DNA of 64,000 nucleotides from Robiginitomaculum sp. (GTDB taxonomy: Bacteria; Pseudomonadota; Alphaproteobacteria; Caulobacterales; Maricaulaceae), in assembly GCA_021776595.1 (NCBI GenBank), contig JAJFFP010000070.1, positions 1 to 64,000 of the forward strand, read 5' to 3'. Of the stretch, positions 25,965 to 48,169 are shown piece after piece. Position 1 is the first letter of the stretch. Each line of letters begins with the position of its first letter. Both the position numbers and the translations under genes were made by a program. The notes below the pieces were generated by a model. The model ran no database searches and was not told the origin of the DNA. It saw nothing but the letters and a program-made list of their open reading frames with translations.

Positions 25965-25992
25965 AAAAACGCGCATAATAGAGTAACGATTG

Positions 25993-26019
25993 CCGCCGGT
26001 GGGCTACTCTCACCGGCGG
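25993..26019 (+). terminator. Hairpin after the TonB receptor gene
   Basis: CCGCCGGTG (25993-26001) pairs perfectly with CACCGGCGG (26011-26019) around a nine-base loop. The following TATTGTTTTA is T-rich but not a clean run, so it is a probable rather than certain terminator. Confidence 0.6.
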
Positions 26020-26068
26020 TATTGTTTTATGGTAATCCCTTGCCGTGAACCTTTGTAAGGATTCCAAC

Positions 26069-27445: not shown

Positions 27446-28300
27446 GGCTTCATGTTGCCCCCCCCTCACCGCCGCAAACAACGCACTCTTTGCATTGCCC
27501 AGTTCCAGAACCACATCAAAATGATTAAAGCCGGGCATGGGAATATTGATGCTATCAAAACCCGCTTTGGCCAAAGCCATTTGATAATCGCTGGTTTGCT
27601 TATGAAAAGCGGCCGTTTCATTTTCGCCAACGCTAAACATCAGGGGGCAGGTCTGGTCCGGTAAATGAAGAAGCGGACTGGCGGCCACTGCCGTTATTTT
27701 GTCCATACCCAGAGCATCATTGATATAGGTATCGACCAGCGGACGCAGATCATAAACGCCGCTGATGAGCAGCGCCGCCAAAAAAGGACACGCGGTAAAA
27801 CCCTCTTTTTCCCAATCCAGACCCAGCGCCATGGCCAACAAATGTGCCCCGGCGGAATGGCCGGACACAGTGATTTTACGCGCATCGCCATCATAAAAAT
27901 CGATATGGCGTAATATCCATAACAACCCGGCTTTAACCTCGGCCGTGATTTGCAATATGTTTGCCTCTGGCGCCAGCGTATAATCCAGCGCCACGAATAT
28001 GGAATTGTGATCCAGAAAGTTGCCGGCGGCAAAAGCGCTTTCGCGTTTGGAAAGCTCCTGCCAATACCCGCCATGAATAAAAACATACACCGGAAATGGA
28101 CCCGCACCATCAGGCACAAAAATGTCCATATTATTGCGCGCCCCCGCACCATAAGAGACATTTTCATGCAGGCCGCCTGCATGGATTTTGCGCATTTGCG
28201 CGCTTTGTTTCACATATTGCCCGACATAGGCACCTATATCATCAACACAGGTGCTGGGCGAATAGTCGCGCTCCAACGCTGTCATCTGCGCTTCAGTCAT
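27368..28300 (-). CDS. Alpha/beta hydrolase, arylformamidase-like (HGGYW type)
   Basis: 310 residues. The oxyanion motif is VFIHGGYWQEL (about 73-83), the nucleophile Ser lies in SGHSAGAHLLA, and the C-terminal His is in MPGFNHFDVV. The HGGxW plus GHSAGAH combination is that of the animal/fungal-type kynurenine formamidase, which makes kynurenine from N-formylkynurenine. Several other esterases share it. The ATG overlaps the stop of the upstream MBL gene (8 bases). The last 25 or so residues (after AAVRGG) look unstructured and are encoded antisense to the end of the symporter, suggesting a lost original stop codon. Confidence 0.78.
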   Translation of the reverse strand: MTEAQMTALERDYSPSTCVDDIGAYVGQYVKQSAQMRKIHAGGLHENVSYGAGARNNMDIFVPDGAGPFPVYVFIHGGYWQELSKRESAFAAGNFLDHNSIFVALDYTLAPEANILQITAEVKAGLLWILRHIDFYDGDARKITVSGHSAGAHLLAMALGLDWEKEGFTACPFLAALLISGVYDLRPLVDTYINDALGMDKITAVAASPLLHLPDQTCPLMFSVGENETAAFHKQTSDYQMALAKAGFDSINIPMPGFNHFDVVLELGNAKSALFAAVRGGQHEASSSKHQRIDNKPDGQRHQIAHGKLP

Positions 28301-29249
28301 GGCTGGCTGGTCTTAACCCATGCTTGCGCAGATCGGCATAAACCATATCCAGCAACCAATCCGCCGTAATCAGATTATCCCCCCATTCAGCATCAAGGTC
28401 GGCAAGCGGTTTGGCCGCTTTCAGGTTTTGCAGATCAACGCCCCTGGCAATGGCCAACGCCACCCGTGTGCGCACGATTTTGAGCATATCCTGATAGGCG
28501 CGCACCTCTTCGCGGTTGGAGATCGGGCCGTGCCCCGGAATGATTTTGGTATGCGCATCGGCCAGTTCATAAAGATCATCATAAAAAGCGATCATATTGT
28601 CGATCGAGCCGCCAAAGGGCACATCGATAAAAGGGTAAAAGCCATTAAAATACATGTCGCCAGTTTGGATTACATTGGCGTTTTTGAAGATCACCAGCGT
28701 ATCGCCAGAGGTATGCACATTAGGCACATAATGCAGCTCTATGATCTCATCACCAAAATGAAAGGTCATGGCACGATCATAGGTGATCGTGGGTAAATTC
28801 TTTGCCGAAGGACCAATTTCGCTTTGCATTTCCGGGGTTTTTTGCGCCAGCGCCATAATGCGCCGGGTTTCTTTCTGTGCGACAATCACCGCCCCGGCAT
28901 TGGCAAAGTTTTCATTGCCGCCACGGTGATCCCGGTGCCAATGGGTATTGACCACATAGCGCACGGGCTGGTCGCTGCGCTTGCCCAGCGCCGTCATAAT
29001 TTTTTGCGACAGAGGCGCATATTCATCATCAATCAGAAAAATACCGTCCGGCCCCACATACGCCCCGATATTACTGCCAAAACCCTGTAGCATATACACA
29101 TCATGCCCCAGTTCTTCGGTGGTGATGTTTACGGTTTTCCAGTCAGGTAATTCGATCTGTGCCCACACCGGAAACGCCATCAATAATGCCGGCAGCATTG
29201 CCAGTCGCCCAAATTTTCGCAAAACTGTTTTCATCTTTTCATTCACCAT
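28293..29249 (-). CDS. MBL-fold metallo-hydrolase, exported
   Basis: 318 residues from the ATG at 29249; the longer frame to 29453 would run into the divergent gene. A signal peptide is visible (KFGRLAMLPALLMAFPVWAQ). The metal site is NTHWHRDHRGG (HxHxDH), with further ligands in NVHTSGDTLVIF, IQTGDMYFNG and IPGHGP. This is a metallo-beta-lactamase fold enzyme probably acting in the periplasm; the substrate cannot be read. It is in one operon with the arylformamidase-like gene, upstream and overlapping. Confidence 0.85.
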   Translation of the reverse strand: MVNEKMKTVLRKFGRLAMLPALLMAFPVWAQIELPDWKTVNITTEELGHDVYMLQGFGSNIGAYVGPDGIFLIDDEYAPLSQKIMTALGKRSDQPVRYVVNTHWHRDHRGGNENFANAGAVIVAQKETRRIMALAQKTPEMQSEIGPSAKNLPTITYDRAMTFHFGDEIIELHYVPNVHTSGDTLVIFKNANVIQTGDMYFNGFYPFIDVPFGGSIDNMIAFYDDLYELADAHTKIIPGHGPISNREEVRAYQDMLKIVRTRVALAIARGVDLQNLKAAKPLADLDAEWGDNLITADWLLDMVYADLRKHGLRPASHD

Positions 29250-29312
29250 CACAATGTCCCAGCCTTGATTTTTTCTATAGCATAAATGATTGTTAAGGGC
29301 TAAAGTAATTTT

Positions 29313-30392
29313 ATGACTGAGCAAAACACAAATAAAGCCGAGCCGGAAATTGCTGCTTACAAACCTTGCCTCGTGCCATTGAAGCAAGGCAAGCGTTATT
29401 TCTGGTGCTCGTGCGGACGCAGTAAAAACCAGCCATTTTGCGATGGCTCTCATGCGGGCACAGACTTCAAACCCTTAATGTTCGTTGCCAATAAAACTGA
29501 AGAGGTCCTGCTTTGCGCCTGCAAGCGCACCCGCTCTGCGCCCTATTGCGATGGCGCGCACAACAACCTTCAGGATACCTATGAAGAAGCCAGCGCCGAT
29601 GAAATCGCCGCCATGAGCCATGCAAAGCTGGTTAAACGCGATCCTGCAAACGGCGGCAAGGCGGTGCTGGACGGTGGTGCCTATGTTCTCACCCCGGACC
29701 CGGCCAATGACACAAGCCGGGGCACGTTGGCCATACAAAAACTGATAGATAAAAAGGATGGTGCCAGACACCTTAGCCTGTTGCGCATGATGGCTGATAA
29801 AGGCACATCGCCCTGGTGCCGTTATGATGAAAGCGATACGGTTTTGTTCGTAGTTTCTGGAAACGGCACGATCAGCATTGAAGGCAAGGATTTTACCATC
29901 GGGCCGGAAACCGGTATTTATGTGCAACGCGGTGAAGCCTTTCGCTTTTGCGCCGATACGCCACTGTCCCTGATGGCCACCATCTGCCCGCAAAGCGATC
30001 AGGCACAATGGCCCGATGCACCGGATGGTAAGTTTGACATGAATTTTCCCGAACGCCGGGTTGGTGTTGATCATGATAAAGCCAGTGTCATGGCCGACCG
30101 GTTTTTTCAAATCCTGGTGGATGATCAGGTTGGCTCAAAAGAAATCACCCAGTTTATTGGTGAGGTTCCGCTTTCCCGTGCGGCTTTTCATCGACATTTA
30201 TATGAGGAAGCCATTGTTATTTTATCTGGTGAAGGCATGATGTGGACTGAAAACTGCAAAGCCCCGGTTAAACCCGGCGACATCATTTTTCTGGCCAAAC
30301 GTCAGGGCCATTCACTGGAATGCACCGACCCCGGAGGCCTGCGCCTGATGGGGGCTTTTTATCCCGCTGGCAGCCCTGCCATCAACTATTAA
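29313..30392 (+). CDS. Double CDGSH iron-sulfur and bicupin fusion protein
   Basis: 359 residues. Two consecutive CDGSH motifs lie at the N-terminus: CSCGRSKNQPFCDGSH (32-47) and CACKRTRSAPYCDGAH (68-83). Each should hold a 2Fe-2S cluster with three Cys and one His. Two cupin domains follow: about 140-235, whose motif YDESDTVLFVVSGNG lacks the metal histidines, and about 260-355, with FHRHLYEEAIVILSGEG and a later GHSLEC that keep a His/Glu metal set. I know no named enzyme with this order; an electron-supplied dioxygenase or sensor is possible. Divergent from the MBL/formamidase pair and 22 bases before the second symporter gene, likely in one operon with it. Confidence 0.82.
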   Translation: MTEQNTNKAEPEIAAYKPCLVPLKQGKRYFWCSCGRSKNQPFCDGSHAGTDFKPLMFVANKTEEVLLCACKRTRSAPYCDGAHNNLQDTYEEASADEIAAMSHAKLVKRDPANGGKAVLDGGAYVLTPDPANDTSRGTLAIQKLIDKKDGARHLSLLRMMADKGTSPWCRYDESDTVLFVVSGNGTISIEGKDFTIGPETGIYVQRGEAFRFCADTPLSLMATICPQSDQAQWPDAPDGKFDMNFPERRVGVDHDKASVMADRFFQILVDDQVGSKEITQFIGEVPLSRAAFHRHLYEEAIVILSGEGMMWTENCKAPVKPGDIIFLAKRQGHSLECTDPGGLRLMGAFYPAGSPAINY

Positions 30393-30414
30393 ACCAAAAG
30401 TCAGGACAGACATT

Positions 30415-31767
30415 ATGGCCGCAGAACCAAAGCACTGGTCCTCAAGTCTTGGCTTTATTCTGGCCACCACCGGCGCAGCGGTCGGCCTTGGCAATTTATG
30501 GCGATTTTCATTTCTGGCCGGGGAAAATGGCGGCGGCGCTTTTGTGCTGATCTATATTGCCTGTGTGTTATTGATCGGCATGCCGATCATGCTGGCCGAA
30601 TTAATCCTTGGGCGCATCGGCGGCGGCAGTGCGGTGCACAGCATTAATGCGCTGATTAAACAAACCGGGGCCAACCCGGCATGGAAGCTGATCGGTGCAT
30701 TAAGCGTCTTTATCCCCTTTGTCGGCATTGCTTATTACAGCGTGGTTGGCGGCTGGACTGTGGATTATGCGGCGCAAGGACTGGCCGGTCAGGTCGCCAG
30801 CGCCAGTGGCAATCTGGCGGATAAGAATTTCAATGCCATGCTGGCCAACCCCTTACGCATGTTGCTGGCCCACAGCGTGTTTATGATTGGTGTCATGATG
30901 GTGCTGATTCGCGGCGTGCAAGGAGGCATTGAGGCCCTGTCTCGCCTGCTCATGCCCGCCTTGTTCATCATGCTGGCCGGGTTGATGACTTACGCTTTGC
31001 TGGTCGGGGATGCGGCAAAAGCGCTTGATTTTCTGTTTCTGCCTGACTGGTCGGCGGTCACGGGTAAAACCGTGGTATTGGCCGCAGGACAGGCATTTTT
31101 CTCGCTGGCCATCGGGGTTGGTATCATGATTACCTATGGGGCTTATGTTCCCAACTCCATATCTTTGGGACGTTCGGTCGCCATTATTGCGCTGGTTGAT
31201 ACCGCCGTAGCGATTATGGCCGGACTGGCCATTTTTCCCTTGGTGTTTTCGCAAGGCCTTGATCCGGCAGGTGGACCCGGCCTGATTTTTGTGACCCTGC
31301 CCACCGCCTTTGGCCAGATGAGCGGCGGTATGGTGGTCGGCGCGGTGTTTTTCATCCTGCTCTTTTTTGCTGCCTTTACCACCGGCATTGGCACCCTGGA
31401 ACCGGTGGTGGCATGGATGGAGGAACGGCGCGGCATGTCGCGCACACGCGGCACGCTAATCGCCGGTTCTGCGGCCTGGGCCATTGGCATTGCGGCACTG
31501 TTATCCTTTAATGTCTGGGCAAAGTTTTTCCCGTTAAATGCCATACCGGGCTTTGTCGGCAAGGGCGTCTTTGATGTGATGGATTTTGCCATTGCCAGCA
31601 TATTGTTGCCATTTAATGGCTTGTTGATTGCACTCTTTACTGGCTGGGTCGCCGCGCAACTGGCACACGGAAAACTTGGCCTTACCCCGGCGCTGGAGCG
31701 CGCCTGGATCTGGGTTTTGCGCCTGCTGATCCCGTTTGCGATTTTGTTGATTGCCCTTTGGAAATGA
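30415..31767 (+). CDS. Sodium:neurotransmitter symporter (NSS) family transporter 2
   Basis: 450 residues, about twelve helices. Helix 1 carries ATTGAAVGLGNLWRFSFLAG then ENGGGAFVLIY, the NSS sodium-binding signature. It resembles transporter 1 at 26069 along its length but is clearly diverged, so it is an older paralogue rather than a recent copy. An amino acid or related substrate is expected. It is followed with ATGA overlap by a class-V PLP enzyme, which may act on what it imports. Confidence 0.92.
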   Translation: MAAEPKHWSSSLGFILATTGAAVGLGNLWRFSFLAGENGGGAFVLIYIACVLLIGMPIMLAELILGRIGGGSAVHSINALIKQTGANPAWKLIGALSVFIPFVGIAYYSVVGGWTVDYAAQGLAGQVASASGNLADKNFNAMLANPLRMLLAHSVFMIGVMMVLIRGVQGGIEALSRLLMPALFIMLAGLMTYALLVGDAAKALDFLFLPDWSAVTGKTVVLAAGQAFFSLAIGVGIMITYGAYVPNSISLGRSVAIIALVDTAVAIMAGLAIFPLVFSQGLDPAGGPGLIFVTLPTAFGQMSGGMVVGAVFFILLFFAAFTTGIGTLEPVVAWMEERRGMSRTRGTLIAGSAAWAIGIAALLSFNVWAKFFPLNAIPGFVGKGVFDVMDFAIASILLPFNGLLIALFTGWVAAQLAHGKLGLTPALERAWIWVLRLLIPFAILLIALWK

Positions 31768-32997: not shown

Positions 32998-35343
32998 TTA
33001 TTTCACCGCGCGCTGGTAATGACGGCGATTGGGTCTGGCTTTCATGGCCAGATCCAGTGCTTTTTCATTGGTCTTTTCCGCTTCGCGATAAAGCTGGTAT
33101 TCGCCGGTTTCATATTGTGGTGGCCAGCCTTGATCGCGCACCCCGTAATGCCCCGCCGCCTCGCGGGTAATATTGGGGTTATTCAGGTGCGGCCGCCCCA
33201 GTGCACATAAATCTGCGCGATGATCGGCAATGATGGTGTTGATCTGCTCCGGCAGGGTAATATCGCCCACGGCGATGGTAGGAATATCTACCTCTTGGCG
33301 GATAAATTCTGCGAACGGGGTTTGCCACATGCGCCCGTAAACCGGTTTTTGCCAGGGCACGGTCTGCCCTGATGAAGCATGAATAATATCCACGCCTGCA
33401 TCCTTAAAGGCTTTGGCAATGGCCGCAAGGTCATCAAGACTCAGGCCACCCTCTGCCCAGTCAGTTGAAGAAAGGCGCACCGACATGGGTTTGTCTTTTG
33501 ACCAGACGGCGCGCATGGCTGCAAAAATTTCCAGCGGGAATTTAAGCCGGTTTTGCACCGTGCCGCCATATTCATCATCGCGGATATTGGTCAGCGGCGA
33601 GAGAAAACTCGCCAGCAGATAACCATGGGCGCAATGTAGCTCAAGCATATCAAATCCGGCGCGCTTGGCGCGTTTGGTTGCGCCGACAAATTCAGCAATT
33701 ATGCGATCCATACCTGCCCGGTCCAGCTCTTCCGGCACCGCAGATTGACCCTCGACATAAGGGATGGGAGAGGCCGAAACAATTGGCCAGTTATCCGCAT
33801 CCTTTGGTTCATCCATACCTTCCCAGCCGCGCTTGGTAGAGCCTTTGCGCCCCGCATGGCCAAGCTGAATAGCGATTTTTGCGCCAGAATTTTCATGAAT
33901 GAAGCCAGTGATGCGCGCCCATGCCGCCTCCTGATCATCATTCCATAAACCGGTGCAGCCATCGGTAATGCGGGCGTCCGCCGACGGGCAGGTCATTTCC
34001 ACAAAAACCAGGCCGGACCCGCCAATGGCGCGGGTTGTATAGTGGGTAAAATGCCAGTCGGTCGGACAGCCATCCACAGCGCTATATTGCGCCATGGGTG
34101 CCACTGCCACCCGGTTGGGAAAGGTCAGGCCACGTATGGAAAAAGACGTAAACATCGGCGTTGGCCGTTTTGCCGAAACATCAAGACCGGTTTCGCTTTG
34201 ATAGCCACGATAAAACTCATCTTCGGCGGCGCGCAGAAAACCCGCATCGCGCAGTTTCAGATTATCCCAGGTGATCGACTTGGCCCGGCTCATAATGGAA
34301 AAGGCGAAGGCATAGCGCGGCTTGTCCCAATGCTGTGGCATATTCTCAAACCAGCGCAAGGAAACGGCGGCATTGTGCTGGGTAATCTCCACCGGTGTGC
34401 GGCGGTTTTTTTCGTATTGTGCAAAGGCCTCCGGCACGTGTTCAGGGTTATCCAGCACCGCCTGGGAAAGCCCAATGGCACATTCCATGGCCAGTTTGGT
34501 TCCCGACCCGATAGACCAGTGCGCCGTGGCCTTGTTATCACCCAGCAATACGATATTACCCGCATTCCAGCGATCGCAGGTAATTACCGGGAAATTGCGC
34601 CACAAGGAACGGTTGGTAATAAACCCGTGGCCATCCAGTTCCTCGGCGAATACACCTTCAAGATACCGGGCACATTCATCTTCATCCATGTCGTCAAAGC
34701 CGCTCGCCTGCCAGCAATCATCGGTGGTTTCCACCACCCAGGTCGAGTGCCCCTCCTCATACTGATAGGTATGGGCGCAAAAATGCCCGTGTTTGGTTTT
34801 CTTGAAAAAAAATGTAAACGCATCCAGAGGCCGCGACGAACCAAGCCAGACAAAATGGTTCGGACGCAATTGGGTTTTCATCCCAAATTCGTCCCGGTGT
34901 TTATCGCGAATGGCGCTGTTGATCCCGTCCGCCGCCACAATGATGTCAGAATCGGCAAAGCGGGTGGATACATCGTCCGGGTCAATGCGGGTGGCATAAT
35001 GAATGGGCACCCCAACGGCGGCGCAACGGTTTTGTAAAACCTGCAACAGGGTCAGGCGCGAACACCCGGCAAAGCCATTGCCGCCAACAATGGTGCGTTC
35101 GCCCTTGTGCTGGATCACAATATCGCTCCAGTGGGCAAAACTGTCGCGGATCATCTCATAAGACGCCGGGTCGGCGCTCAGGAATTCGTCCAGCGTTTCA
35201 TCCGAGAAAACCACACCAAAGCCAAACGTATCATCGGCGCGATTTTGCTCGAAAACCTCAATTTCAAAATCAGGCCGCGCCTTTTTGGTCAAAAGCGCAA
35301 AATACAAACCGCCTGGCCCGCCACCAATCACTGTGATTTTCAT
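32998..35343 (-). CDS. 2-aminobenzoyl-CoA / salicylyl-CoA monooxygenase fused to old-yellow-enzyme-type reductase
   Basis: 781 residues from the ATG at 35343 (GGGAG seven bases upstream); an ATG at 35364 is possible. The N-terminal half is a flavin monooxygenase (VIGGGPGGLYFALLTKKA; LLGDNKATAHWSIGSGTKLA near 290). The C-terminal half from about 400 is an old-yellow-enzyme barrel (FTSFSIRGLTFPNRVAVAPM; LELHCAHGYLLASFLSPLTN). This fusion is known for 2-aminobenzoyl-CoA monooxygenase/reductase of Azoarcus evansii, and similar proteins are annotated salicylyl-CoA 5-hydroxylase. With kynU in the cluster, anthraniloyl-CoA is the better guess. It is divergent from a MarR regulator. Confidence 0.88.
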   Translation of the reverse strand: MKITVIGGGPGGLYFALLTKKARPDFEIEVFEQNRADDTFGFGVVFSDETLDEFLSADPASYEMIRDSFAHWSDIVIQHKGERTIVGGNGFAGCSRLTLLQVLQNRCAAVGVPIHYATRIDPDDVSTRFADSDIIVAADGINSAIRDKHRDEFGMKTQLRPNHFVWLGSSRPLDAFTFFFKKTKHGHFCAHTYQYEEGHSTWVVETTDDCWQASGFDDMDEDECARYLEGVFAEELDGHGFITNRSLWRNFPVITCDRWNAGNIVLLGDNKATAHWSIGSGTKLAMECAIGLSQAVLDNPEHVPEAFAQYEKNRRTPVEITQHNAAVSLRWFENMPQHWDKPRYAFAFSIMSRAKSITWDNLKLRDAGFLRAAEDEFYRGYQSETGLDVSAKRPTPMFTSFSIRGLTFPNRVAVAPMAQYSAVDGCPTDWHFTHYTTRAIGGSGLVFVEMTCPSADARITDGCTGLWNDDQEAAWARITGFIHENSGAKIAIQLGHAGRKGSTKRGWEGMDEPKDADNWPIVSASPIPYVEGQSAVPEELDRAGMDRIIAEFVGATKRAKRAGFDMLELHCAHGYLLASFLSPLTNIRDDEYGGTVQNRLKFPLEIFAAMRAVWSKDKPMSVRLSSTDWAEGGLSLDDLAAIAKAFKDAGVDIIHASSGQTVPWQKPVYGRMWQTPFAEFIRQEVDIPTIAVGDITLPEQINTIIADHRADLCALGRPHLNNPNITREAAGHYGVRDQGWPPQYETGEYQLYREAEKTNEKALDLAMKARPNRRHYQRAVK

Positions 35344-35384
35344 GTTATTCTCCCGATCTTGCATTTATTTTAGCTTTAAGATAC

Positions 35385-35394
35385 TTACATGTAA
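35385..35394. promoter_or_regulatory. Candidate MarR operator in the divergent promoter
   Basis: TTACATGTAA is a perfect 10-base palindrome, 41 bases from the monooxygenase start and 22 bases from the MarR start. MarR proteins of aromatic-CoA pathways commonly bind such palindromes in divergent promoters and release in the presence of the aryl-CoA thioester. Confidence 0.6.
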
Positions 35395-35416
35395 ACTAAT
35401 AATTCGGACCAATACC

Positions 35417-35878
35417 ATGACCGATACCACCGCGTTGAAACTCTGGCTGCAACTGGCCAAGACCTCTTCCAGCCTGCAGGCAAGGATCAATGCACGACTA
35501 AAAGACAAATATAATCAGTCCATGGTGCGTTTTGATGTGCTTTCGCAACTGGCGCGTAGCGATGATCAGACCATGCAAATCAGCGCCTTATCGCGCGCAT
35601 TGATTGCTTCATCTGGCAATATCACGCGCCTTTTGGACCGGATGCAAAGCGAAGGTCTGATAATCCGCACCCCGGCGCCTCATGATCGGCGCAGTGTATT
35701 GGTTACGCTGAGCGCACCGGGGGCGGCTCTTTTTGATAAAATGGCAAAAGATCATGCGCGCTGGGTTGATGACTTGCTTACAGAACTGCCAGGTCAGAAA
35801 AAAAGTGATCTATTGGAAAGCCTGCATGAATTGCAAAGCGTTTTATCGAAATGCCCCGGCGGTCAAGACAGAGCTTGA
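35417..35878 (+). CDS. MarR-family regulator 1
   Basis: 153 residues from the ATG at 35417; the longer open frame from 35285 runs over the divergent promoter and is not used. The winged helix is seen in MVRFDVLSQLARSDDQTMQI, ALSRALIASSGNITRLLDRM and GLIIRTPAPHDRRSVLVTLS (the DR-R wing). It probably represses the monooxygenase gene and itself through the palindrome at 35385-35394. It converges with the Rid-family gene. Confidence 0.87.
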   Translation: MTDTTALKLWLQLAKTSSSLQARINARLKDKYNQSMVRFDVLSQLARSDDQTMQISALSRALIASSGNITRLLDRMQSEGLIIRTPAPHDRRSVLVTLSAPGAALFDKMAKDHARWVDDLLTELPGQKKSDLLESLHELQSVLSKCPGGQDRA

Positions 35879-35883
35879 GAACA

Positions 35884-36288
35884 TCACAAGGGCACCACGG
35901 CTGTGGTTTCTATTTCAATTTTGGCACGTTTTTCCATCAATGAGCTCACTTGAACGCAAGCCATGCAGGGAAAATTTGTGCCCATCAGTTCTTTCCATAT
36001 GGCACCAATTTCCTTTTGACGGGCCAGATAGTCTTCACGGTCGGTAACATACCAGGTCATGCGCACAACGTGCTCTGCCCCGGCCCCGGCTTCGGCAAGT
36101 ATGGCCATTGTATTGACCAGGGTTTGGCGCAATTGATCCACCAGATCATCGCTTTCAAATTCTTCCTGCGGGTTCCAGCCAATGATGCCTGCCGTCATTA
36201 CCAGACGGCCATTAGTCTCTATACCGTTGGCATATCCTTTTGGCCGCTTCCAGCCTTTTGGTTGTAATACGCGTTTCACGAAAGGCAC
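35884..36288 (-). CDS. Rid-family protein lacking the RidA arginine
   Basis: 134 residues, YjgF/RidA fold: GIETNGRLVMTAGIIGWNPQ, LVDQLRQTLVNTMAILAEAG, VVRMTWYVTDREDYLARQKE. In RidA the substrate-binding Arg lies in a PAR-x(2)-V segment; here the matching stretch is FPCMACVQVSSL with Met instead. So imine/enamine deaminase activity as in RidA cannot be assumed, and it belongs to another Rid subfamily. Its start overlaps the thioesterase gene by 13 bases and it is the last gene of the minus-strand operon. The pathway has an amino-cyclohexene intermediate, which makes a Rid protein interesting here. Confidence 0.85.
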   Translation of the reverse strand: MPFVKRVLQPKGWKRPKGYANGIETNGRLVMTAGIIGWNPQEEFESDDLVDQLRQTLVNTMAILAEAGAGAEHVVRMTWYVTDREDYLARQKEIGAIWKELMGTNFPCMACVQVSSLMEKRAKIEIETTAVVPL

Positions 36289-36704
36289 CCCTCCTCAAGA
36301 TAGCCCTTCATACGGTCTTGAACCGATTGTGGCCAGTCATGAGCGCCGGACATATCTTTTTTTGCGCAGACCAGCACCAGTTTTGAGGTAATTCGCACTT
36401 CATCACCACCGCCCAGAACCAAAACCGTTAGCGCTACGGTGGCGCGGCGCACTTCGCTAACATTAAGTCGGAAAACCACATGGTCCCCCAACCGGCAAGG
36501 GGCCATAAAACGGGTTTGTATATCGCCAAGCGGGGCGCCAACACCATGCTCCCCCAGCAACACGCCAAAACTCATGCCCAAGGCCTCGTCAAACCAGTCT
36601 TCGACGACTTCATTTAGAAGCTCAAAATAGCGCGGATAGAACATGATCCCCGCCGGGTCGGTATGGCCAAAGCGGATTTTTTTCTTTTTTTCAAACACAG
36701 GCAT
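36276..36704 (-). CDS. Acyl-CoA thioesterase, 4-hydroxybenzoyl-CoA thioesterase-like
   Basis: 142 residues, hotdog fold. The signature RFGHTDPAGIMFYPRYFELL (about 11-30) contains the catalytic Asp of the 4-hydroxybenzoyl-CoA thioesterase group. It would release CoA from an aromatic or related acid at the pathway end or rescue trapped CoA. It overlaps the dehydrogenase gene by one base upstream and the Rid gene downstream, so all three are coupled. Confidence 0.85.
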   Translation of the reverse strand: MPVFEKKKKIRFGHTDPAGIMFYPRYFELLNEVVEDWFDEALGMSFGVLLGEHGVGAPLGDIQTRFMAPCRLGDHVVFRLNVSEVRRATVALTVLVLGGGDEVRITSKLVLVCAKKDMSGAHDWPQSVQDRMKGYLEEGCLS

Positions 36705-37870
36705 TATTCAGCCGTTTCCTGCAAGAGCTGGCGGGCAATGACTATTTTTTGCACTTCTGACGCCCCCTCATAAATACGCAAGGCCCGAACCTCCCGGTAA
36801 AGTTCTTCAACTTTTTGCCCCTTGGTTACGCCAAGGCCGCCCAGCAATTGCACCGCCTTGTCAATCACGGATTGCGCCTGATCTGTGGCGTAGAGTTTGG
36901 CCATGGCCGCTTCGCGGGTAACCCGCGTTTTTTGCACATCCTTGGTCCAGGCGGAGCGATAGATCAGCAAGGCCGACGCATCCACATCCAGCGCCATTTC
37001 GGCCAACATACCCTGTGCCAGCGGCAAATCAGAGAGCGTTGCACCAAACATGGATCGACGGCGCGCATGGCCCAGGGCCTCATCCAGCGCCCGCCTGGAA
37101 AAGCCAAGGGCGGCGGCCCCTACCGTGGTGCGAAACACATCCAGGGTGGAAAGGGCAACCTTAAAGCCCCGCCCTTCTTCACCCAACAGGTTTGTCACCG
37201 GTATAACACAATCGGTAAATTGCAATTTGGCCAATGGGTGCGGGGCAATCACCTCAATACGCCCGGCGACCTGCAAGCCTGGCGTATCGGCATCGACAAT
37301 TATGGCGCTAACCCCGGCATCGGTTTTGGCAAACAGCGTATAAAAATCGGCAATACCGCCATTGGAAATAAAAGTTTTTTGCCCATTGGCGAGATAGTGA
37401 TTACCGTTTCGCAGCAAGCTGGTCGTCATGGCCGCCGCATCAGAGCCGGCATCCGGTTCGGTCAGGGCAAAGGCAGCAATCTTTTCACCACTGGCTACTT
37501 TTGGCAGATAGGCAGATTTTTGTTCCCCATTGCCAAACATGCTGATGGCGCCGGAACCAAGCCCCTGCATGGCAAAGACAAAATCAGCAAGCCCGCTATG
37601 GCGCGCCAAAGTTTCGCGGATGATGCACAGCGAACGCACATCAAGGCCTTCATGCACACCGCCAAATTCAGCCGGCACACAATAGCGCAACCAGCCCCCG
37701 GCCCCCAGCACAGCCACCAGCGCGCGGCATGTGGCGTCCACATCATCATGGGCTTCTTTTGTATCGACTATGGCCAGCAATTCGCGTGAGGCCCAGGCGT
37801 CCAGCTCTTGCGCCAGCACACGGTGGTGATCTTCTAAAAACGGCCAGTGCAGAAAACCAGTGTCGCTCAT
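36704..37870 (-). CDS. Acyl-CoA dehydrogenase (aromatic-CoA cluster)
   Basis: 388 residues with the usual order: [20 protein letters not shown] (flavin loop), [60 protein letters not shown] and the catalytic-Glu loop [18 protein letters not shown]. It may oxidise the alicyclic CoA thioester made by the monooxygenase/reductase. It overlaps the thioesterase gene. A REP-like pair separates it from the enoyl-CoA hydratase gene upstream, yet all are on one strand and likely co-transcribed. Confidence 0.9.
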
Positions 37871-37988: not shown

Positions 37989-38798
37989 TCAATCGCCCTC
38001 AAACACTGGTTTTTCCTTGGCCACAAAAGCCTTATAGGCCCGTTCAAAATCACGGGTCTGCATACAAATGGCCTGTGCCTGTGCCTCGGCCTCAATGGCG
38101 GTATCAAGGCTCATATCCCATTCCATATTAAGCTGGTTCTTGGTGATACCATTGGCAAATGAAGGCCCCGATGCCAGCCGTCCGGCCAGTTTCATGGCAG
38201 CACCGTCTAAATCCTCTGCCCCATGAATGGCATTAAAAAAGCCCCAGGCCAGCCCTTCATCTGCGCCAAAACTGCGCCCGGTCATCAGCAATTCCGTGGC
38301 CCGGCCCTGCCCGATAATGCGCGGCAGCATCGCGCACGCCCCCATATCACATCCGGCAAGGCCCACCCGGTTAAACAAAAACGCGGTTTTGACCGCCGGG
38401 CTGGCCAGACGCAGATCAGAGGCCATGGCGATGATCGCCCCGGCACCCACACAAATACCGTCTATCGCGGTAATGATGGGTTGTGGACAGCCGCGCATGG
38501 CCTTGACCAGATCGCCAGTCATGCGGGTAAAATCCAGCAATTGCGTCATATTCATCTTTGTCAGTGGGGCAATGATTTCATGCACATCACCGCCGGAACA
38601 AAAATTGCCGCCATGGCTGCCAAAGACGATGGCTTTGACGTCTTTATCATACACCAGCGCCCGAAAGAGATCGCGTAATTCGGCGTAAGACTCAAAGGTT
38701 AGCGGGTTTTTTCGCTCTGGCCGGTTTAAGGTAATGCGGGCAATATGGTTCTCAAATGTCCAGCAAAAGTGTGTGGGCGTGTAGGTTTGCGGGTTCAT
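37989..38798 (-). CDS. Enoyl-CoA hydratase/isomerase family protein
   Basis: 269 residues, crotonase fold. [17 protein letters not shown] is the oxyanion-hole loop with the family's (C/A)SGGD pattern. [20 protein letters not shown] and [20 protein letters not shown] follow. The C-terminal helices end normally. It would hydrate or open an alicyclic enoyl-CoA. Its start overlaps the MarR2 stop by four bases (ATGA). The catalytic Glu of hydratases at the GLAGCD position is not obvious (Gly/Cys/Asp instead), so isomerase or ring hydrolase action is also possible. Confidence 0.85.
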
Positions 38799-39250
38799 GC
38801 GCTTTTCCGTTTCGTGCGGACATCGGGCTCCAACTGGTCAAGCAAGGCGCGCAATGTGGCAAGGTCACTGGCGCTCAGGCGTTCAAAAGCATCATGTATC
38901 CATTCTTTATGCTGTGCCGCCATATCCGCGAACAAATCCCGCCCTTCTGACGTCAAAGAGAAAATAACGCCGCGCGCATCCCTGGTGCTGGTGCGGCGTT
39001 CCACATAACCATCACGAATGAGCGGTGCCGTAACCTGGGTCGTATTACCCTCGGTCACCATTAGCTGGCGCGATAGCTCCCCGGCCCGCAGGCCTTCCGG
39101 ATCGTGGCGATCAAGGGCGGACATGACATCAAATCTGGATATGGAAACCCCAAAGCGGGTGCGCAATTGCGCATCTACAGATTTCTTGATCATATTGGAA
39201 GCATTGAGCAGGCTAAGCCAGGCCCGTAATGTGTCGCGTCCATCAGTCAT
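38795..39250 (-). CDS. MarR-family regulator 2
   Basis: 151 residues. Winged helix seen in [40 protein letters not shown] and [20 protein letters not shown]. It lies between the SDR and enoyl-CoA hydratase genes with four-base overlaps on both sides, so it is part of the operon it may control. It differs from MarR1, giving the cluster two sensors, maybe for different CoA thioesters. Confidence 0.87.
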
Positions 39251-39984
39251 GCAATTACCTCTCCGCCATCCACGATTATGGCCTGCCCATTGGTAGCGGC
39301 CGCCCCTTCTCCGGACAAATAAAGCACCGCCCCGGCAACTTCTTCGGGCTGCACCAGGCGGCCCATGGGGTTTGCCTTGACCAGTGATTGCAAGGCGGCC
39401 TCTTTTGATCGTCCGGTCTTGTTCATAATCATGTCTAGCGATTCTGTCACCAATGCTGTTTCGGTAAAACCCGGACAGACCGCATTGGAAGTCACGCCGG
39501 TTTTGGCCAGTTCTATCGCCAGGGTCTTGACCAGACCCAAAACCCCGTGCTTGGCCGCACTATAGGCCGCCGTATAGGCATAGCCCTTAATTGAAGCGGT
39601 GGATGCAATCACAATAAAGCGCCCCCAGCGGCGTTCCACCATGCCAGGCAGCGCCGCCCTGGCGCATAAAAACGCGCCCGTCAGATTGACCGCCAACATA
39701 TTTTGCCACATCGACAGATCCGTTTTTAGTGCGGGTGCGGTTGCCGCTGCGCCCGCATTATTGACCAGAATATCCACCGGACCGACCCTGGCAAAGGCCT
39801 GGTTTACCGAAGTCTCATCGGTTACATCCATAACGGTATAATCAAACCCGCTGGCCTTCAAAGGCCCTTCTTTACGCCCGGCCACCAACACCCTGGCACC
39901 GTTTTGGGCAAAGCGGTGCGCACAGGCCAAGCCAATACCGGTGCCGCCGCCGGTTATCAGAACTGTCTTTTTTGCACCGCTCAT
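39247..39984 (-). CDS. Short-chain dehydrogenase/reductase (3-hydroxyacyl-CoA type)
   Basis: 245 residues. The NAD-binding glycine motif is LITGGGTGIGLACAHRFAQN, NNAGAA follows, and the catalytic Ser-Tyr-Lys set is in IASTASIKGYAYTAAYSAAKHG. PGFTETALV and the C-terminal GQAIIVDGG are standard. It probably oxidises a 3-hydroxyacyl-CoA ring or open-chain intermediate made after the hydratase. It is the first gene of the minus-strand operon, divergent from iorA. Confidence 0.88.
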   Translation of the reverse strand: MSGAKKTVLITGGGTGIGLACAHRFAQNGARVLVAGRKEGPLKASGFDYTVMDVTDETSVNQAFARVGPVDILVNNAGAAATAPALKTDLSMWQNMLAVNLTGAFLCARAALPGMVERRWGRFIVIASTASIKGYAYTAAYSAAKHGVLGLVKTLAIELAKTGVTSNAVCPGFTETALVTESLDMIMNKTGRSKEAALQSLVKANPMGRLVQPEEVAGAVLYLSGEGAAATNGQAIIVDGGEVIA

Positions 39985-40109: not shown

Positions 40110-42260
40110 TTGGCAGAGCGATCTTTCGCAAGAGAAGTTCAAAAACTAAAAGCCAAAAAAGGGGAGACCTTTCACGGCGAAGGCATTCTTGCCGTTACCA
40201 AGGCCTTGTTGCAATCGGGTGTTTCTTATGTCGGCGGCTATCAGGGCGCACCGATTTCTCACCTGATGGATGTGCTGTCCGATGCCGAACCGATCCTGAA
40301 CGAACTGGGCGTGCATTTTGAAACTTCGGCCAGTGAAGCGGCCGCCGCCGCCATGCTGGCGGCTTCGGTCAATTATCCCCTTCGCGGAGCGGTAACCTGG
40401 AAATCCACCGTGGGCACCAATGTTGCATCCGATGCGCTGGCCAGCGTGGCCTCCAGCGGCGTCATGGGCGGCACTTTGGTTATTGTTGGCGAGGATTATG
40501 GTGAAGGCTCCTCCATCATGCAGGAGCGATCGCACCCCTTTGCCATGAAATCGCAAATCTGGTTGCTGGATCCTCGCCCCAACCTGACCGCGATCACCCA
40601 AATGGTGGAAAAAGGCTTTGAACTTTCCGAGGCTTCCAACACCCCGGTTATGCTGGAGCTGCGTATTCGTGCCTGCCATGTGTCTGGCTCATTTATAGCC
40701 AAAGACAATGTGCGACCGGCGTTTACATTGGCCGATGCCATGGAAAATCCGGTGCGTGATTATGACCGGGTGGTTCTGCCGCCTTCTAATTTCGTCCATG
40801 AGGTGGAAAAGATTGAAAAGCGCTGGCCCGCCGCTGTCTCTTACATCAAAAAGCACAAGCTGAATGAATTTCTGGGCGGCCATAAAGGCGATGTGGGTAT
40901 CGTGGTGCAGGGCGGCCTTTATAACACCTTGATGCGCGCCATGGAGCTGGCCGGACTGGCCGATTGTTTCGGGCAAACCGACATTCCCATCTATTGCCTG
41001 AACGTCACTTACCCGATGATTGAGGACGAGGTGCGCGGGTTTTGTGCCGACAAGCGCGCCGTTCTGATGATTGAAGAAGGCCAGCCGGAATATATTGAAC
41101 AGGCGCTTAACACCATCTTGCGTCAGGCAGACCTGTCCACTCGCGTGATCGGAAAAAAACTTCTTCCCCGTGCCGGGGAATATACCGGTCAGGTCTTACG
41201 CGAAGCGCTATCGGCCTTTTTTGCAGACCAGGCCCCCGGCAAAATAAAATCCACTGCCGTTGACCACCCGTTACCGGAAAAAGAGCAAAAAACGCTCATG
41301 GCTACCGTGCCGCCACGCCCTGTAGGATTTTGCACCGGATGCCCGGAACGTCCGGTTTTTACCGCCATGAAACTGGTGCAGCGCAAACTGGGTGATTTTC
41401 ATGTTTCTTGCGACATTGGCTGTCATCTGTTTTCCATCTTACCGCCCTTTAACATTGGCAATACCACCATGGGCTATGGGCTTGGCTGGTCCGGCGCTTC
41501 GGCCTTTAATACCCCCGCCAGCAAACGAACCATCAGCATTATGGGCGATGGCGGGTTCTGGCATAATGGCCTGACCAGCGGTGTCGGCAATGCTGTTTTC
41601 AATAAAAATGATAATGTGCTGGTGATCATTGATAATGGGTATTCGGCGGCGACCGGCGGGCAGGACCTGCTTTCCTCACGCGCCGATAATGCCAATCGCC
41701 GGACTGGCCAATCCATAGAAAACGCAGTGCGGGGCCTGGGGGTAAAATGGGTGAGGCCGGTCAATACCTATGATCTGGGAAAAATGGTCAAAACCCTCAC
41801 GGATGCCCTGACCACCAGTGACAAGGGCCCAAAAATCATTCTGGCCCAGTCCGAATGTATGTTGAACCGCCAGCGCCGCGAAAAACCTTTGCGCAATAAA
41901 GCCATCAAGGACGGCAAGCGGATAGAAATCACCCGTTTTGGCGTGGACGCAGATACCTGCACCGGCGATCATGCCTGCATCCGCCTTTCGGGCTGCCCGT
42001 CATTGACCATTATTGATAATCCGGACCCGTTGCGTGAGGACCCGGTGACACGTGTCAATAATGATTGCGTTGGCTGTGGCGTTTGCGGCGAGATCACCCA
42101 TGCGGCCATTTTGTGCCCATCTTTTTACAGTGCCAAAGTCATCAACAACCCCACCGGGTTTGACCGTTTTCGCGCGGCCATCGCCCATGCGGTCATTGGC
42201 TTTTTGCAAGGCCGTGCTGATAATAAGCGCCAGAAATACAGTTTTGGTACCACCCCATGA
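40110..42260 (+). CDS. iorA: Indolepyruvate ferredoxin oxidoreductase, alpha subunit
   Basis: 716 residues. The start is a TTG: AAGGAG at 40097-40102 lies seven bases upstream and no ATG fits. The N-terminal pyrimidine domain (SYVGGYQGAPISHLMD), the thiamine-diphosphate motif SIMGDGGFWHNGLTSG...NGY (about 475-510) and C-terminal ferredoxin clusters (CTGDHACIRLSGCP; CVGCGVCG with a later Cys-Pro) are all present. It oxidatively decarboxylates aryl-2-oxoacids such as indolepyruvate to acyl-CoA, reducing ferredoxin. Its stop overlaps iorB by four bases. Confidence 0.92.
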   Translation: MAERSFAREVQKLKAKKGETFHGEGILAVTKALLQSGVSYVGGYQGAPISHLMDVLSDAEPILNELGVHFETSASEAAAAAMLAASVNYPLRGAVTWKSTVGTNVASDALASVASSGVMGGTLVIVGEDYGEGSSIMQERSHPFAMKSQIWLLDPRPNLTAITQMVEKGFELSEASNTPVMLELRIRACHVSGSFIAKDNVRPAFTLADAMENPVRDYDRVVLPPSNFVHEVEKIEKRWPAAVSYIKKHKLNEFLGGHKGDVGIVVQGGLYNTLMRAMELAGLADCFGQTDIPIYCLNVTYPMIEDEVRGFCADKRAVLMIEEGQPEYIEQALNTILRQADLSTRVIGKKLLPRAGEYTGQVLREALSAFFADQAPGKIKSTAVDHPLPEKEQKTLMATVPPRPVGFCTGCPERPVFTAMKLVQRKLGDFHVSCDIGCHLFSILPPFNIGNTTMGYGLGWSGASAFNTPASKRTISIMGDGGFWHNGLTSGVGNAVFNKNDNVLVIIDNGYSAATGGQDLLSSRADNANRRTGQSIENAVRGLGVKWVRPVNTYDLGKMVKTLTDALTTSDKGPKIILAQSECMLNRQRREKPLRNKAIKDGKRIEITRFGVDADTCTGDHACIRLSGCPSLTIIDNPDPLREDPVTRVNNDCVGCGVCGEITHAAILCPSFYSAKVINNPTGFDRFRAAIAHAVIGFLQGRADNKRQKYSFGTTP

Positions 42261-43774
42261 AACCCGTTCGCCCGATCACCATTGCCATCACCGCCATGGG
42301 CGGACAGGGCGGCGGTGTGCTGGCTGGCTGGATCACCCAATTGGCTGAATCCCAAAATTATATCGCCCAGTCCACGTCTGTGCCGGGGGTGGCACAGCGC
42401 ACCGGTGCGACCATTTATTATGTTGAGCTTTTCCCAAAAGAGGCCGCCAAAAAAGCCGGGCGCGCGCCGGTTCTGGCGCTCATGCCATTGCCTGGGGATG
42501 TGGACATTGTCATTGCCTCAGAGATGATGGAGGCAGGCCGCGCCCTGATGCGTGGCTTTGTTACCAAACGCACCACGCTGATCGCCTCCACCCATCGCAT
42601 TTACGCCATTTCCGAAAAAGAACCATTGGGCGATGGCCGTCAGGATCTGGAGGCAGTGCAAAAACTGGCCGAAGATACCGCCGGGCGCTTTATTGGCTTT
42701 GATATGGAGGCGGCGGCCCAGAGCGCGCAGAGCTTTATCAGTTCCGTGCTATTTGGGGCCTTGGCCGGATCGGATGCCCTGCCCTTTTCCCGTGATCAGT
42801 TTACAGCGGTTATTCGCAAAAGCGGGAAGGCCGTCAAGGCCAATCTAAGCGGCTTTGCCCTTGGCTATGCCAAAGGCGCAGGCCAGAAGGACAGCATAGA
42901 ACCGGAAGCGGGTGGAACACCCGCATCCACCACAACGCCGTTGACGCCAGCACCGGCCATTGCGCCCTTGCTGGCGCACCTGCACGAAGAATTTTCCCCG
43001 GCCACCCACGACATGCTGCGCCTGGGGCTGGAACGCGTTGTGGATTTTCAGGATGTGGCCTATGGCACACTTTATCTTGATCGCATGAGCGCCATTCACG
43101 CGCTGGACAAGGCTTATAATGGTGCCCGCAAGAGCTGGCGGCTTAGTAAAGCGGTGGCGCGTTATCTGGCACTGGCCATGGCTTATGAGGATACCATTCG
43201 CATCGCAGATCTGAAAACCAGATCCAGCCGCTTTGACCGCTTTGCTAATGAGGTCGGTGCAAAGGATGGACAGATCATCACCATTACCGAATTTATGCAC
43301 CCGCGGGTGGAGGAAATCTGTGATATTCTGCCCGTATCGCTTGGACGCTTTATGCTGCAAAACAAGGTGGCCAACTCTGCTTTGGGTTTCTTCTTTGCCA
43401 AAGGACGTAAAATCAAAACCACCAGCGTTGGCGGTTTCTTGTTATTATACACGCTGGCCGCGTTCAAACCCATACGCCGCGCCAGCCTGCGCTTTATGCA
43501 GGAGCAAAAACGCATGGATCACTGGCTGGATGCCATTACCAATGCGGCACCAGTCAATTACGCACTGGCTTGTGAAATTGCCGGCATGCAACGCCTGATC
43601 AAGGGCTATGGCGACACACATGCGCGAGGCCTGAAAAACTATCAAAGCATTATGGCCGCGTTAGACACCATTGGCACCGACCGTAATGCCAACAAGCGAT
43701 TACAGGCTTTAAAAGAGGCCGCCTTGCAACATGAGGACGGACAAGCCCTGAAAATCGCGCTAGAAAAATATTAA
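42257..43774 (+). CDS. iorB: Indolepyruvate oxidoreductase beta subunit with C-terminal extension
   Basis: 505 residues. The first 200 or so are the gamma-type IorB domain (ITAMGGQGGGVLAGWITQLA, STSVPGVAQRTGATIYYVEL). A linker rich in Thr/Pro/Ala (about 215-235) leads to a C-terminal helical domain of about 270 residues (HEEFSPATHDMLRLGLERVV ... LKNYQSIMAALDTIGTDRN) that classical archaeal IorB proteins do not have. Such long forms accompany aerobic proteobacterial IorA. The extension may protect or couple the enzyme; its role is not shown here. Confidence 0.88.
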   Translation: MKPVRPITIAITAMGGQGGGVLAGWITQLAESQNYIAQSTSVPGVAQRTGATIYYVELFPKEAAKKAGRAPVLALMPLPGDVDIVIASEMMEAGRALMRGFVTKRTTLIASTHRIYAISEKEPLGDGRQDLEAVQKLAEDTAGRFIGFDMEAAAQSAQSFISSVLFGALAGSDALPFSRDQFTAVIRKSGKAVKANLSGFALGYAKGAGQKDSIEPEAGGTPASTTTPLTPAPAIAPLLAHLHEEFSPATHDMLRLGLERVVDFQDVAYGTLYLDRMSAIHALDKAYNGARKSWRLSKAVARYLALAMAYEDTIRIADLKTRSSRFDRFANEVGAKDGQIITITEFMHPRVEEICDILPVSLGRFMLQNKVANSALGFFFAKGRKIKTTSVGGFLLLYTLAAFKPIRRASLRFMQEQKRMDHWLDAITNAAPVNYALACEIAGMQRLIKGYGDTHARGLKNYQSIMAALDTIGTDRNANKRLQALKEAALQHEDGQALKIALEKY

Positions 43775-43787
43775 AAGGGAGAGTGAC

Positions 43788-44579
43788 ATGAATGGAACTG
43801 AAATATTAAGCGCATTGACCGGTGCATTGGGCGGCGGCGGTGTGCGCGTGGTGGATCTGACACAACCGTTGGAGCCCAAAACGCCGGTTTTGCAATTACC
43901 ACCGGAATTTGTGCAAAACCCGCCTTTTGAGATTGAGGTGCTTTCCAAATATGATGACCGCGGCCCCGCCTGGTATTGGAACAAGTTCAAATGCGGGGAA
44001 CATACCGGCACTCATTTTGATGCCCCGATCCATTTCGTTACCGGCAAGGATTACGAGAACAACGCCACCGACACCATTCCCGTGGAAAAATTCATTGGAC
44101 CAGCCTGTGTCATTGACGCCAGCAAGGAAGTGGAAAAAGACCCGGACTTTCTGGTGAGCATTGATTACGTCAAATCCTGGGAAGCCGCCCACGGTAAAAT
44201 TGCCCCCGGATCATGGGTGCTGTTTCGCACCGATTGGTCCAAACGCACCGACCCGGATGCTTTTTTGAATTTCCAGGAAGATGGCGCCCACACCCCAGGA
44301 TGGGAAGCGGCCTGTATTCCATTTTTGGCCAATGAACGCGACGTTTTGGGCGTTGGCGTGGAAACCGTAGGCACTGATGCGGGCCAGGCGCACATGTTTG
44401 ACCCGGCTTTTCCCTGTCATACCTTAATGCACGGGGCCAATAAATTCGGGCTGGCCAGCCTGACCAATCTGGATCAACTGCCCCCCACGGGTGCCATTGT
44501 CATTGCCCCGCCGCTGAAAATCGTGGGCGGTTCCGGCAGTCCGCTACGGGTGCTGGCACTGGTGCCAAACGGGGCTTAG
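43788..44579 (+). CDS. Cyclase-family metal-dependent hydrolase
   Basis: 263 residues. RVVDLTQPLEPKTPVLQLPP at the N-terminus and the metal motif CGEHTGTHFDAPIHFVTGKD (about 65-84) are those of the cyclase/KynB family (PF04199 type). Members include bacterial kynurenine formamidase and isatin hydrolase, both zinc or manganese enzymes linked to tryptophan/indole breakdown. It follows iorB by 13 bases with a strong ribosome site (GGGAGAG), so it is the third gene of the ior operon. N-formylkynurenine, isatin or another cyclic amide could be the substrate. Confidence 0.85.
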   Translation: MNGTEILSALTGALGGGGVRVVDLTQPLEPKTPVLQLPPEFVQNPPFEIEVLSKYDDRGPAWYWNKFKCGEHTGTHFDAPIHFVTGKDYENNATDTIPVEKFIGPACVIDASKEVEKDPDFLVSIDYVKSWEAAHGKIAPGSWVLFRTDWSKRTDPDAFLNFQEDGAHTPGWEAACIPFLANERDVLGVGVETVGTDAGQAHMFDPAFPCHTLMHGANKFGLASLTNLDQLPPTGAIVIAPPLKIVGGSGSPLRVLALVPNGA

Positions 44580-47629: not shown

Positions 47630-48169
47630 TTAAGGATTGAGGTTCTCGTTGTTTTCTTCAATCCGGGTCGGATCAAATGTCGGGTTGCTTTCGCGCAAGG
47701 GGCGCACGGGACAATGATTGAGCTTTTGCGACACATATTGGCAGAAAACGGGGTCCAGCATCACTTTATGGTTTTCCCACCATTCACGCCGACCGGGGGC
47801 GCTATGCAGGTCCAGCCAATAGCTTTCCTTGCCTTCCAACAGTTTTTCATCCAGCGCGTTTTGCCGGCGTAGATGATAACACAATTCCCACATGGCGGTT
47901 TCAGAAAAACACCACAGGGTGTATCGGTGTTGCTCCCAATGGTTAAGACTTTTCATGTCTTCATTGCCGCGAAGCGCTATTTTATAGAGCACGGAATCCG
48001 CCAATAGCTGGTCCACAAGCGCCTTTTGATAATCAAGAACGGCGATGGTCGCCTGCCCTTTCATTTGATTGCGGGTCAGGACGATTTGAACAGCCACAAA
48101 CATTAGTGAGCCAAGAATGGCCAGCACAGCCACCGTCTGACCGACATAGTAAATGCTCTCAAGCGTCAT
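47630..48169 (-). CDS. Paralogue array member 1 (last gene): membrane-anchored protein of unknown function
   Basis: 179 residues from the ATG at 48169 (start MTLESIYYVGQTVAVLAILG, as in its neighbours; the longer frame has no support). One N-terminal helix (about 9-31), then a soluble domain with the array pattern: LNHWEQHRYTLW, ELCYHLRRQNAL and PGRREWWENH. The C-terminal tail is acidic. Its start lies inside the last 11 bases of member 2, so translation is coupled. It ends two bases from the 3' end of the tRNA-Leu gene on the other strand. Confidence 0.78.
   Translation of the reverse strand: MTLESIYYVGQTVAVLAILGSLMFVAVQIVLTRNQMKGQATIAVLDYQKALVDQLLADSVLYKIALRGNEDMKSLNHWEQHRYTLWCFSETAMWELCYHLRRQNALDEKLLEGKESYWLDLHSAPGRREWWENHKVMLDPVFCQYVSQKLNHCPVRPLRESNPTFDPTRIEENNENLNP

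Follow-up and report, generated by a model that had tools for sequence, protein, structure and literature searches.

The window, a 64,000-nucleotide stretch of DNA, encodes a Rid protein with methionine in the place of the RidA arginine, and the gene for this protein is an almost constant companion of the gene for a fused 2-aminobenzoyl-CoA monooxygenase/reductase (ACMR). Judged from sequence, the Arg-less Rid variant appears to be new. We propose, with a probability of roughly 60%, that this Met-type Rid is a hydrolase dedicated to the 2-aminobenzoyl-CoA pathway, which would deaminate an enamine thioester without the arginine, since the carboxyl group of this substrate is bound to CoA.

A Rid protein with methionine at the RidA arginine position

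The open reading frame at positions 35884 to 36288 of the minus strand starts with GTG, stops with TGA and encodes 134 amino acids. Its product matched PF01042 over residues 18 to 132 with 79 bits (cut-off, 27.3), in agreement with the preliminary description, which had assigned a Rid protein to exactly these coordinates. The NCBIfam model for RidA-type hydrolases, TIGR00004, scored 61.3 bits, below its cut-off of 106.25, and the score of the NCBI RutC model was also below the cut-off. We aligned the protein with HI0719, YabJ and TdcF, whose structures are solved, and with RidA, TdcF, RutC and YoaB from the Escherichia coli K-12 record. The segment FPCMACVQVS aligned with FPARSCVEVA, placing Met109 (codon at 35962 to 35964, minus strand) in the column of RidA Arg105. 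The alignments to solved and K-12 proteins agreed on this point, and the methionine that had been noted from the letters alone was therefore confirmed. In E. coli K-12, four Rid proteins have arginine in this column and a fifth, YjgH, has tryptophan. The arginine is also the mark of the deaminase group formed by RidA, Rid1 to Rid3 and RutC, and the Met-type protein lacks it.

The preliminary description had named an arginine at a shifted position as evidence against its reading. We searched for such a residue in an alignment of 110 sequences, made up of the window protein, 29 sequences from genomes of its class and 80 named loci. No arginine at a shifted position emerged from the 110 sequences, and the Met reading stands. 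Only two columns held arginine in at least 90 of the 110 sequences: column 76 (105 sequences; lysine in RidA) and column 99 (97 sequences, with lysine in 9 more). Lysine or arginine was frequent at columns 17 (96 of 110), 84 (102), 123 (93) and 104 (88), the last of which belongs to the preceding loop, five residues ahead of Met109. Arginine was found at column 121 in 74 of the 110. None of these columns adjoins Met109.

Two trivial readings of the substitution were rejected. A sequencing or frame artefact was ruled out because relatives share the residue. The protein is also not the sole, degenerating RidA of the organism, because the genome holds six PF01042 matches, one of which has PARSSV at the arginine place and is an Arg-bearing, RidA-like protein.

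Conservation and predicted structure

The Arg105 column held methionine in 109 of the 110 sequences and isoleucine in the remaining one (L032), whose genome, G095, has no entry for fused ACMR. Methionine was also found in the Rid protein of plasmid pAL1 of Arthrobacter Rue61a (36% identity; YPAMAG at the column) and in plasmid-borne Rid proteins of Deinococcus psychrotolerans and Paracoccus denitrificans. Because the residue is shared by 109 of 110 relatives and by the Arthrobacter, Deinococcus and Paracoccus proteins, the substitution appears to mark a subfamily and not to be a quirk of one gene. The RidA pocket residues Tyr17 and Glu120 (TdcF numbering) are retained as Tyr19 (106 of 110, phenylalanine in the remainder) and Glu125 (110 of 110), and RidA Asn88 is replaced by Gly95. 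The residues W13, G37, G95 and G103 are fixed in all 110 sequences and missing from E. coli RidA; W38 (109 of 110), W79 (105), R76 (105) and R99 (97) are further residues of this sort.

The loss of a residue thought necessary for catalysis would fit a protein that does not catalyze at all and instead binds, chaperones or senses ACMR or its CoA product. We regard this as distinctly improbable, given that a protein that only binds would have no evident need for the invariant Glu125 and the nearly invariant Tyr19. The glutamate, though, is also kept in Rid4 to Rid7, for which the available text of PMC4433059 gives no shown activity.

In a tree of 50 short sequences, built to see whether the Met-type rows share a single origin, the 36 Met-type rows (including the isoleucine-bearing L032) required 2 changes, compared to a mean of 12.3 upon shuffling. 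In only 20% of the bootstrap trees was one change enough for these rows, and the long-branch row own_L002 fell beside them. Rid5 and Rid6 retain the glutamate and are variable in the arginine column (PMC4433059). Compared with these two groups, the Met-type proteins likewise keep the glutamate and lack the arginine, but their column is fixed as methionine rather than variable, and their placement in the 50-row tree is not firm.

The AlphaFold2 model of the protein, built from 54 sequences, had the Rid fold, with a mean pLDDT of 96.3. The best 50 structure matches listed were all of the Rid/YjgF/UK114 kind, with Z scores from 12.5 to 18.1. Among those listed, the best solved structure was 5v4f (Z, 18.1; 128 residues; 1.8 A), and plant RidA scored 14.3. 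The same 5v4f was the best profile match among solved proteins.

The Rid gene closes a tight gene run

Rid is the last gene of a minus-strand run that spans 39984 to 35884. The run begins with a short-chain dehydrogenase (SDR; 39247 to 39984; PF00106, 173.6 bits) and continues with a MarR family regulator (38795 to 39250; PF12802, 37.6 bits), an enoyl-CoA hydratase family protein, or crotonase (37989 to 38798; NF006107, 476 bits, cut-off 330), an acyl-CoA dehydrogenase (36704 to 37870; PF00441, 149 bits) and a 4HBT/YbgC-like thioesterase (36276 to 36704; PF13279, 35.9 bits; TIGR00051 below its cut-off). All junctions overlap except for a gap of 118 bases between the hydratase and dehydrogenase genes; the start of Rid overlaps the stop of the thioesterase gene by 13 bases. 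Downstream of Rid and on the same strand lies a fused flavin monooxygenase/FMN reductase of the ACMR type (35364 to 32998), which scored 1025 bits with NF006101, slightly below the curated cut-off of 1078, and 209.5 bits with PF00724. Between the two, a second MarR-like regulator occupies the plus strand (35285 to 35878, start codon provisional) and is 31% identical to the MarR protein of the run.

The segments from 22108 to 23376 and from 23637 to 31767 encode a kynureninase (321 bits, above the NCBI cut-off), a pair of sodium-dependent transporters, a protein resembling TonB receptors and an alpha/beta hydrolase. These genes are likely a region for tryptophan/kynurenine uptake and breakdown that feeds anthranilate. 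A class V aminotransferase is also encoded within the window. On the plus strand, positions 40110 to 44579 hold genes like the alpha and beta genes of indolepyruvate oxidoreductase and, after them, a gene for a homologue of isatin hydrolase (5nmp, E = 5.3e-106). We found no close 2-aminobenzoate-CoA ligase in the genome of the window, which is 93.7% complete (best match, 30% identity), and the ligase was absent from the available DNA of four of the six named loci with the oxidoreductase-like pair. A direct route from isatin via isatinate to 2-aminobenzoyl-CoA and CO2 is possible at 40110 to 44579. Phenylglyoxylate oxidoreductase performs an analogous conversion that yields benzoyl-CoA. For the like-named iadA/iadB of auxin-degrading loci, no assigned role was found in the available text of the literature. 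Farther along, at 47630 to 50824 of the minus strand, six consecutive open reading frames of 172 to 201 amino acids resemble one another close to their beginnings, in TLESIYYIGQTVAVLAILASL-like segments, and diverge beyond them. The three tested gave no Pfam match, and the six are probably a tandem family of small membrane-anchored proteins.

A close Rid match accompanies fused ACMR across genomes

Our first sample comprised 398 genomes of the phylum of the window, with Rid matches accepted at E values up to 1e-18. Rid was present in 69 of the 71 genomes with fused ACMR and in 0 of the 327 without it (Fisher p = 9e-76; the genomes are not independent). By genus, Rid occurred in 44 and fused ACMR in 46 of 213 genera. 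The second sample consisted of 190 genomes of the class, with Rid matches above 100 bits. Here, Rid was found in 28 of 30 genomes with fused ACMR (a count that includes the partial gene of G064 and that of G007, which is split over contigs) versus 5 of 160 without it (G011, G067, G095, G125 and G187, or six genomes with the 63-bit match of G093 included). The two samples have few genomes in common, that of the window included. Because species are not independent draws, p values for co-occurrence serve as a guide only.

The two genes are also close together. Among the 57 other genomes of the first sample with a single Rid match, 53 had it on the same contig as ACMR and 50 within 15 kb. Full-length ACMR was present at 38 of the 47 named loci with 8 kb of DNA on both sides. 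Seven of the other nine (L058, L062, L063, L066, L069, L098 and L106) retain acyl-CoA dehydrogenase and hydratase genes, some of them at the edge of the available DNA. L113 has SDR and MarR matches and a thioesterase-like reading frame; at L067, none of the sought pathway genes was found. The pairing was seen in named Alpha- and Gammaproteobacteria, in a Rubrobacter and on plasmids of Actinomycetota and Deinococcota, and a plasmid of Paracoccus denitrificans PD1222 carries a clean version of the gene run. Such a pairing across these taxa is hard to obtain without a shared job. Together with the adjacency of the genes in many genomes, the co-occurrence (69 of 71 against 0 of 327) supports the placement of Rid in the enamine-forming 2-aminobenzoyl-CoA pathway, which the preliminary description had put forward. 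The closeness of the genes indicates the pathway and not the reaction.

Over all 80 named loci, many of which are cut by contig ends, we counted, at the thresholds applied, the hydratase at 66, the dehydrogenase at 61, MarR at 60, ACMR at 54, SDR at 44 and the thioesterase at 25. These counts bear on the possibility that Rid acts in damage control, clearing a reactive by-product of ACMR or of nearby PLP enzymes instead of the main intermediate. Such a role is the accepted one for RidA (PMC4433059, PMC8113886), and kynureninase and the class V aminotransferase are both within the window. We nevertheless consider it quite unlikely. Across the same loci, so often cut by contig ends, the link is with ACMR (54 of 80) and not with kynureninase (6 of 80) or the aminotransferase (3 of 80); the genome retains an Arg-bearing RidA-like protein elsewhere; and side products of PLP enzymes have a free carboxylate, for which the arginine should be kept.

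Among the genomes listed with the monooxygenase half alone, none of seven (G004, G033, G070, G093, G102, G107 and G162) had a close Rid; the listing from which they come reaches down to about 164 bits, and there may be more half-only genomes. The weak match of G093 (63 bits) had 31% identity and an E value of 1.4e-16. We infer that the monooxygenase half alone would not make the enamine. A link of Rid to salicylyl-CoA 5-hydroxylase in general, the NCBI name of the fused protein, was rejected on the same 0 of 7 among the genomes listed. A close Met-type Rid was missing from two of the 71 ACMR genomes of the phylum. In G466, the best match was a RidA with arginine, and G516 (L136) carries a different type of Arg-less Rid, perhaps a second solution, 14 kb away from fused ACMR.

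Proposed deamination of the ACMR product

The product of ACMR is 2-amino-5-oxocyclohex-1-enecarbonyl-CoA (PMC4539516), a ring enamine and beta-enamino thioester, a cyclic CoA-thioester analogue of 3-aminoacrylate. In the proposed sequence, ACMR would form this compound, and Met-type Rid, with its retained Glu and Tyr region, would add water to the imine form. Ammonia would leave, and the resulting 2,5-dioxocyclohexane-1-carbonyl-CoA would be opened and degraded by the crotonase, dehydrogenases and thioesterase encoded nearby. The arginine of RidA holds the carboxylate of the substrate through a salt bridge (PMC4433059, PMC4960622), and its removal nearly or fully abolishes the activity of RidA and RutC (PMC4433059, PMC8113886). 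An esterified carboxyl would give the arginine nothing to bind, and the residue may have been given up because the carboxylate is masked by CoA. The change from Asn88 to glycine should make room for the ring and the pantetheine arm. We infer this reaction, a CoA site and roles for W13, G37-W38, W79, R76, R99 and E119 from the conserved residues and the gene context. The preliminary description had left two options, either that other residues do the work of the arginine or that the protein does something else, for instance hydrolysing the ring or binding. We favour the first and add a reason for it, namely, that a CoA thioester would replace the group that the arginine holds.

Rid might instead act one step later, cutting the C-C bond in the ring of the 1,3-dicarbonyl thioester or assisting the crotonase in this, with the enamine lost spontaneously or through another enzyme. 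The residues newly conserved in this group point to a reshaped pocket, NF006107, the model matched by the crotonase, specifies no reaction, and the model of the ring-opening oxepin-CoA hydrolase gave the crotonase 139 bits against a cut-off of 300, all of which would suit this alternative. We still think it unlikely, as the tyrosine and glutamate of the deaminase pocket are retained, crotonases such as BadI already perform ring-opening chemistry and we know of no Rid protein that cuts C-C bonds. Published work on Arg-less Rid proteins weighs against the proposed deamination and favours a later step, in that those tested were without deaminase activity (PMC4433059, PMC8113886, PMC7221256). According to the available text of these sources, this holds for Rid7 of Salmonella (PMC4433059) and for Rid4 to Rid7 in general where tested (PMC8113886), and Y3550 of Yersinia pestis could not take the place of RidA (PMC7221256). 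The substrates in these negative results, where named there, had free carboxylates (PMC4433059, PMC8113886, PMC7221256).

Metabolite data from Arthrobacter Rue61a would fit deamination of the enamine thioester, in that a CoA ester of a C7H8O4 acid was detected only in anthranilate-grown cells (PMC3534580). The authors of that study suggested that this ester, whose C7H8O4 assignment is tentative, might be cyclohexanedione-carboxyl-CoA, and they attributed their failure to detect the enamine thioester to its instability below pH 5 (PMC3534580). The C7H8O4 ester is possibly a trace of the deaminated product, and it may have formed without an enzyme. On plasmid pAL1 of this strain, four genes separate Met-type Rid from ACMR. 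At this locus (L129, 4137 to 11050), Rid is divergent from genes for a fumarylacetoacetate-hydrolase-family protein, a cupin, a TesB-type thioesterase, a ligase and ACMR; the first of these may be the enzyme that opens the dione ring. At the Deinococcus psychrotolerans plasmid locus (L131, 6552 to 9402), an AMP-binding, ligase-like gene and Met-type Rid flank two further genes, one of the cyclase family and one like a TPP-dependent decarboxylase, possibly a branch of isatin hydrolase and isatinate decarboxylase.

Implications for Arg-less Rid proteins

One arginine is used to predict Rid deaminases, and the available text of PMC4433059 and PMC8113886 gives no function for the Arg-less subfamilies. 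The odds seem to us evenly balanced that a further Rid branch deaminates without arginine by virtue of a CoA thioester substrate. If so, the Arg105 rule would read the form of the substrate carboxyl group and not catalytic ability, and other Arg-less Rid proteins would be worth trying on esterified or amidated enamines. The Met-type subfamily offers a named substrate, a partner enzyme (69 of 71 genomes) and a chemical reason for the loss of the arginine, and the question of the Arg-less Rid proteins can therefore be tested with one enzyme and one substrate. The 2-aminobenzoyl-CoA pathway is one of four proposed routes for aerobic anthranilate breakdown (PMC4539516). To this pathway, Rid probably supplies the missing deaminase, and its ammonia-releasing step would then have an enzyme. 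In the open-licence literature, we found no paper that ties a Rid protein to the pathway and no published activity of a Met-type Rid; the original 2001 Azoarcus paper lies outside that literature and may list a Rid gene.

Comparison with known systems

The 2-aminobenzoyl-CoA pathway of Azoarcus evansii shares with the window a monooxygenase/reductase and enzymes of the beta-oxidation type and also includes the ligase, whereas no deamination enzyme is named in the available text of PMC4539516. Among solved Rid proteins, the top match, 5v4f (YyfB of Yersinia pestis, Rid5/Rid6-like), also lacks arginine at the column but has another residue there and is only 29 to 30% identical. This protein may be Y3550 of PMC7221256, which differs further in that its gene lies near an aminotransferase gene (PMC7221256). 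RidA and TdcF have the same fold and the same pocket tyrosine and glutamate; they differ from the Met-type protein at Met109 (Arg105), Gly95 (Asn88) and Gly-Trp at 37-38 (Pro-Val), and the Met-type protein has four extra residues before column 95. AmnE, the 2-aminomuconate deaminase, likewise belongs to the Rid family and deaminates an enamine that arises in a pathway for aromatic amines, but it has a conserved cleft arginine, Arg117, which we take to be the RidA arginine, and its substrate is a free acid and not a CoA thioester (PMC6742747). RutC, the 3-aminoacrylate deaminase of E. coli, shares the Rid fold, a catabolic operon with a monooxygenase (RutA) and a beta-enamino acid substrate, as proposed for Met-type Rid (PMC8113886). 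RutC differs in that it has Arg104 and depends on it (PMC8113886), whereas Met-type Rid has methionine and is predicted to act on a CoA thioester.
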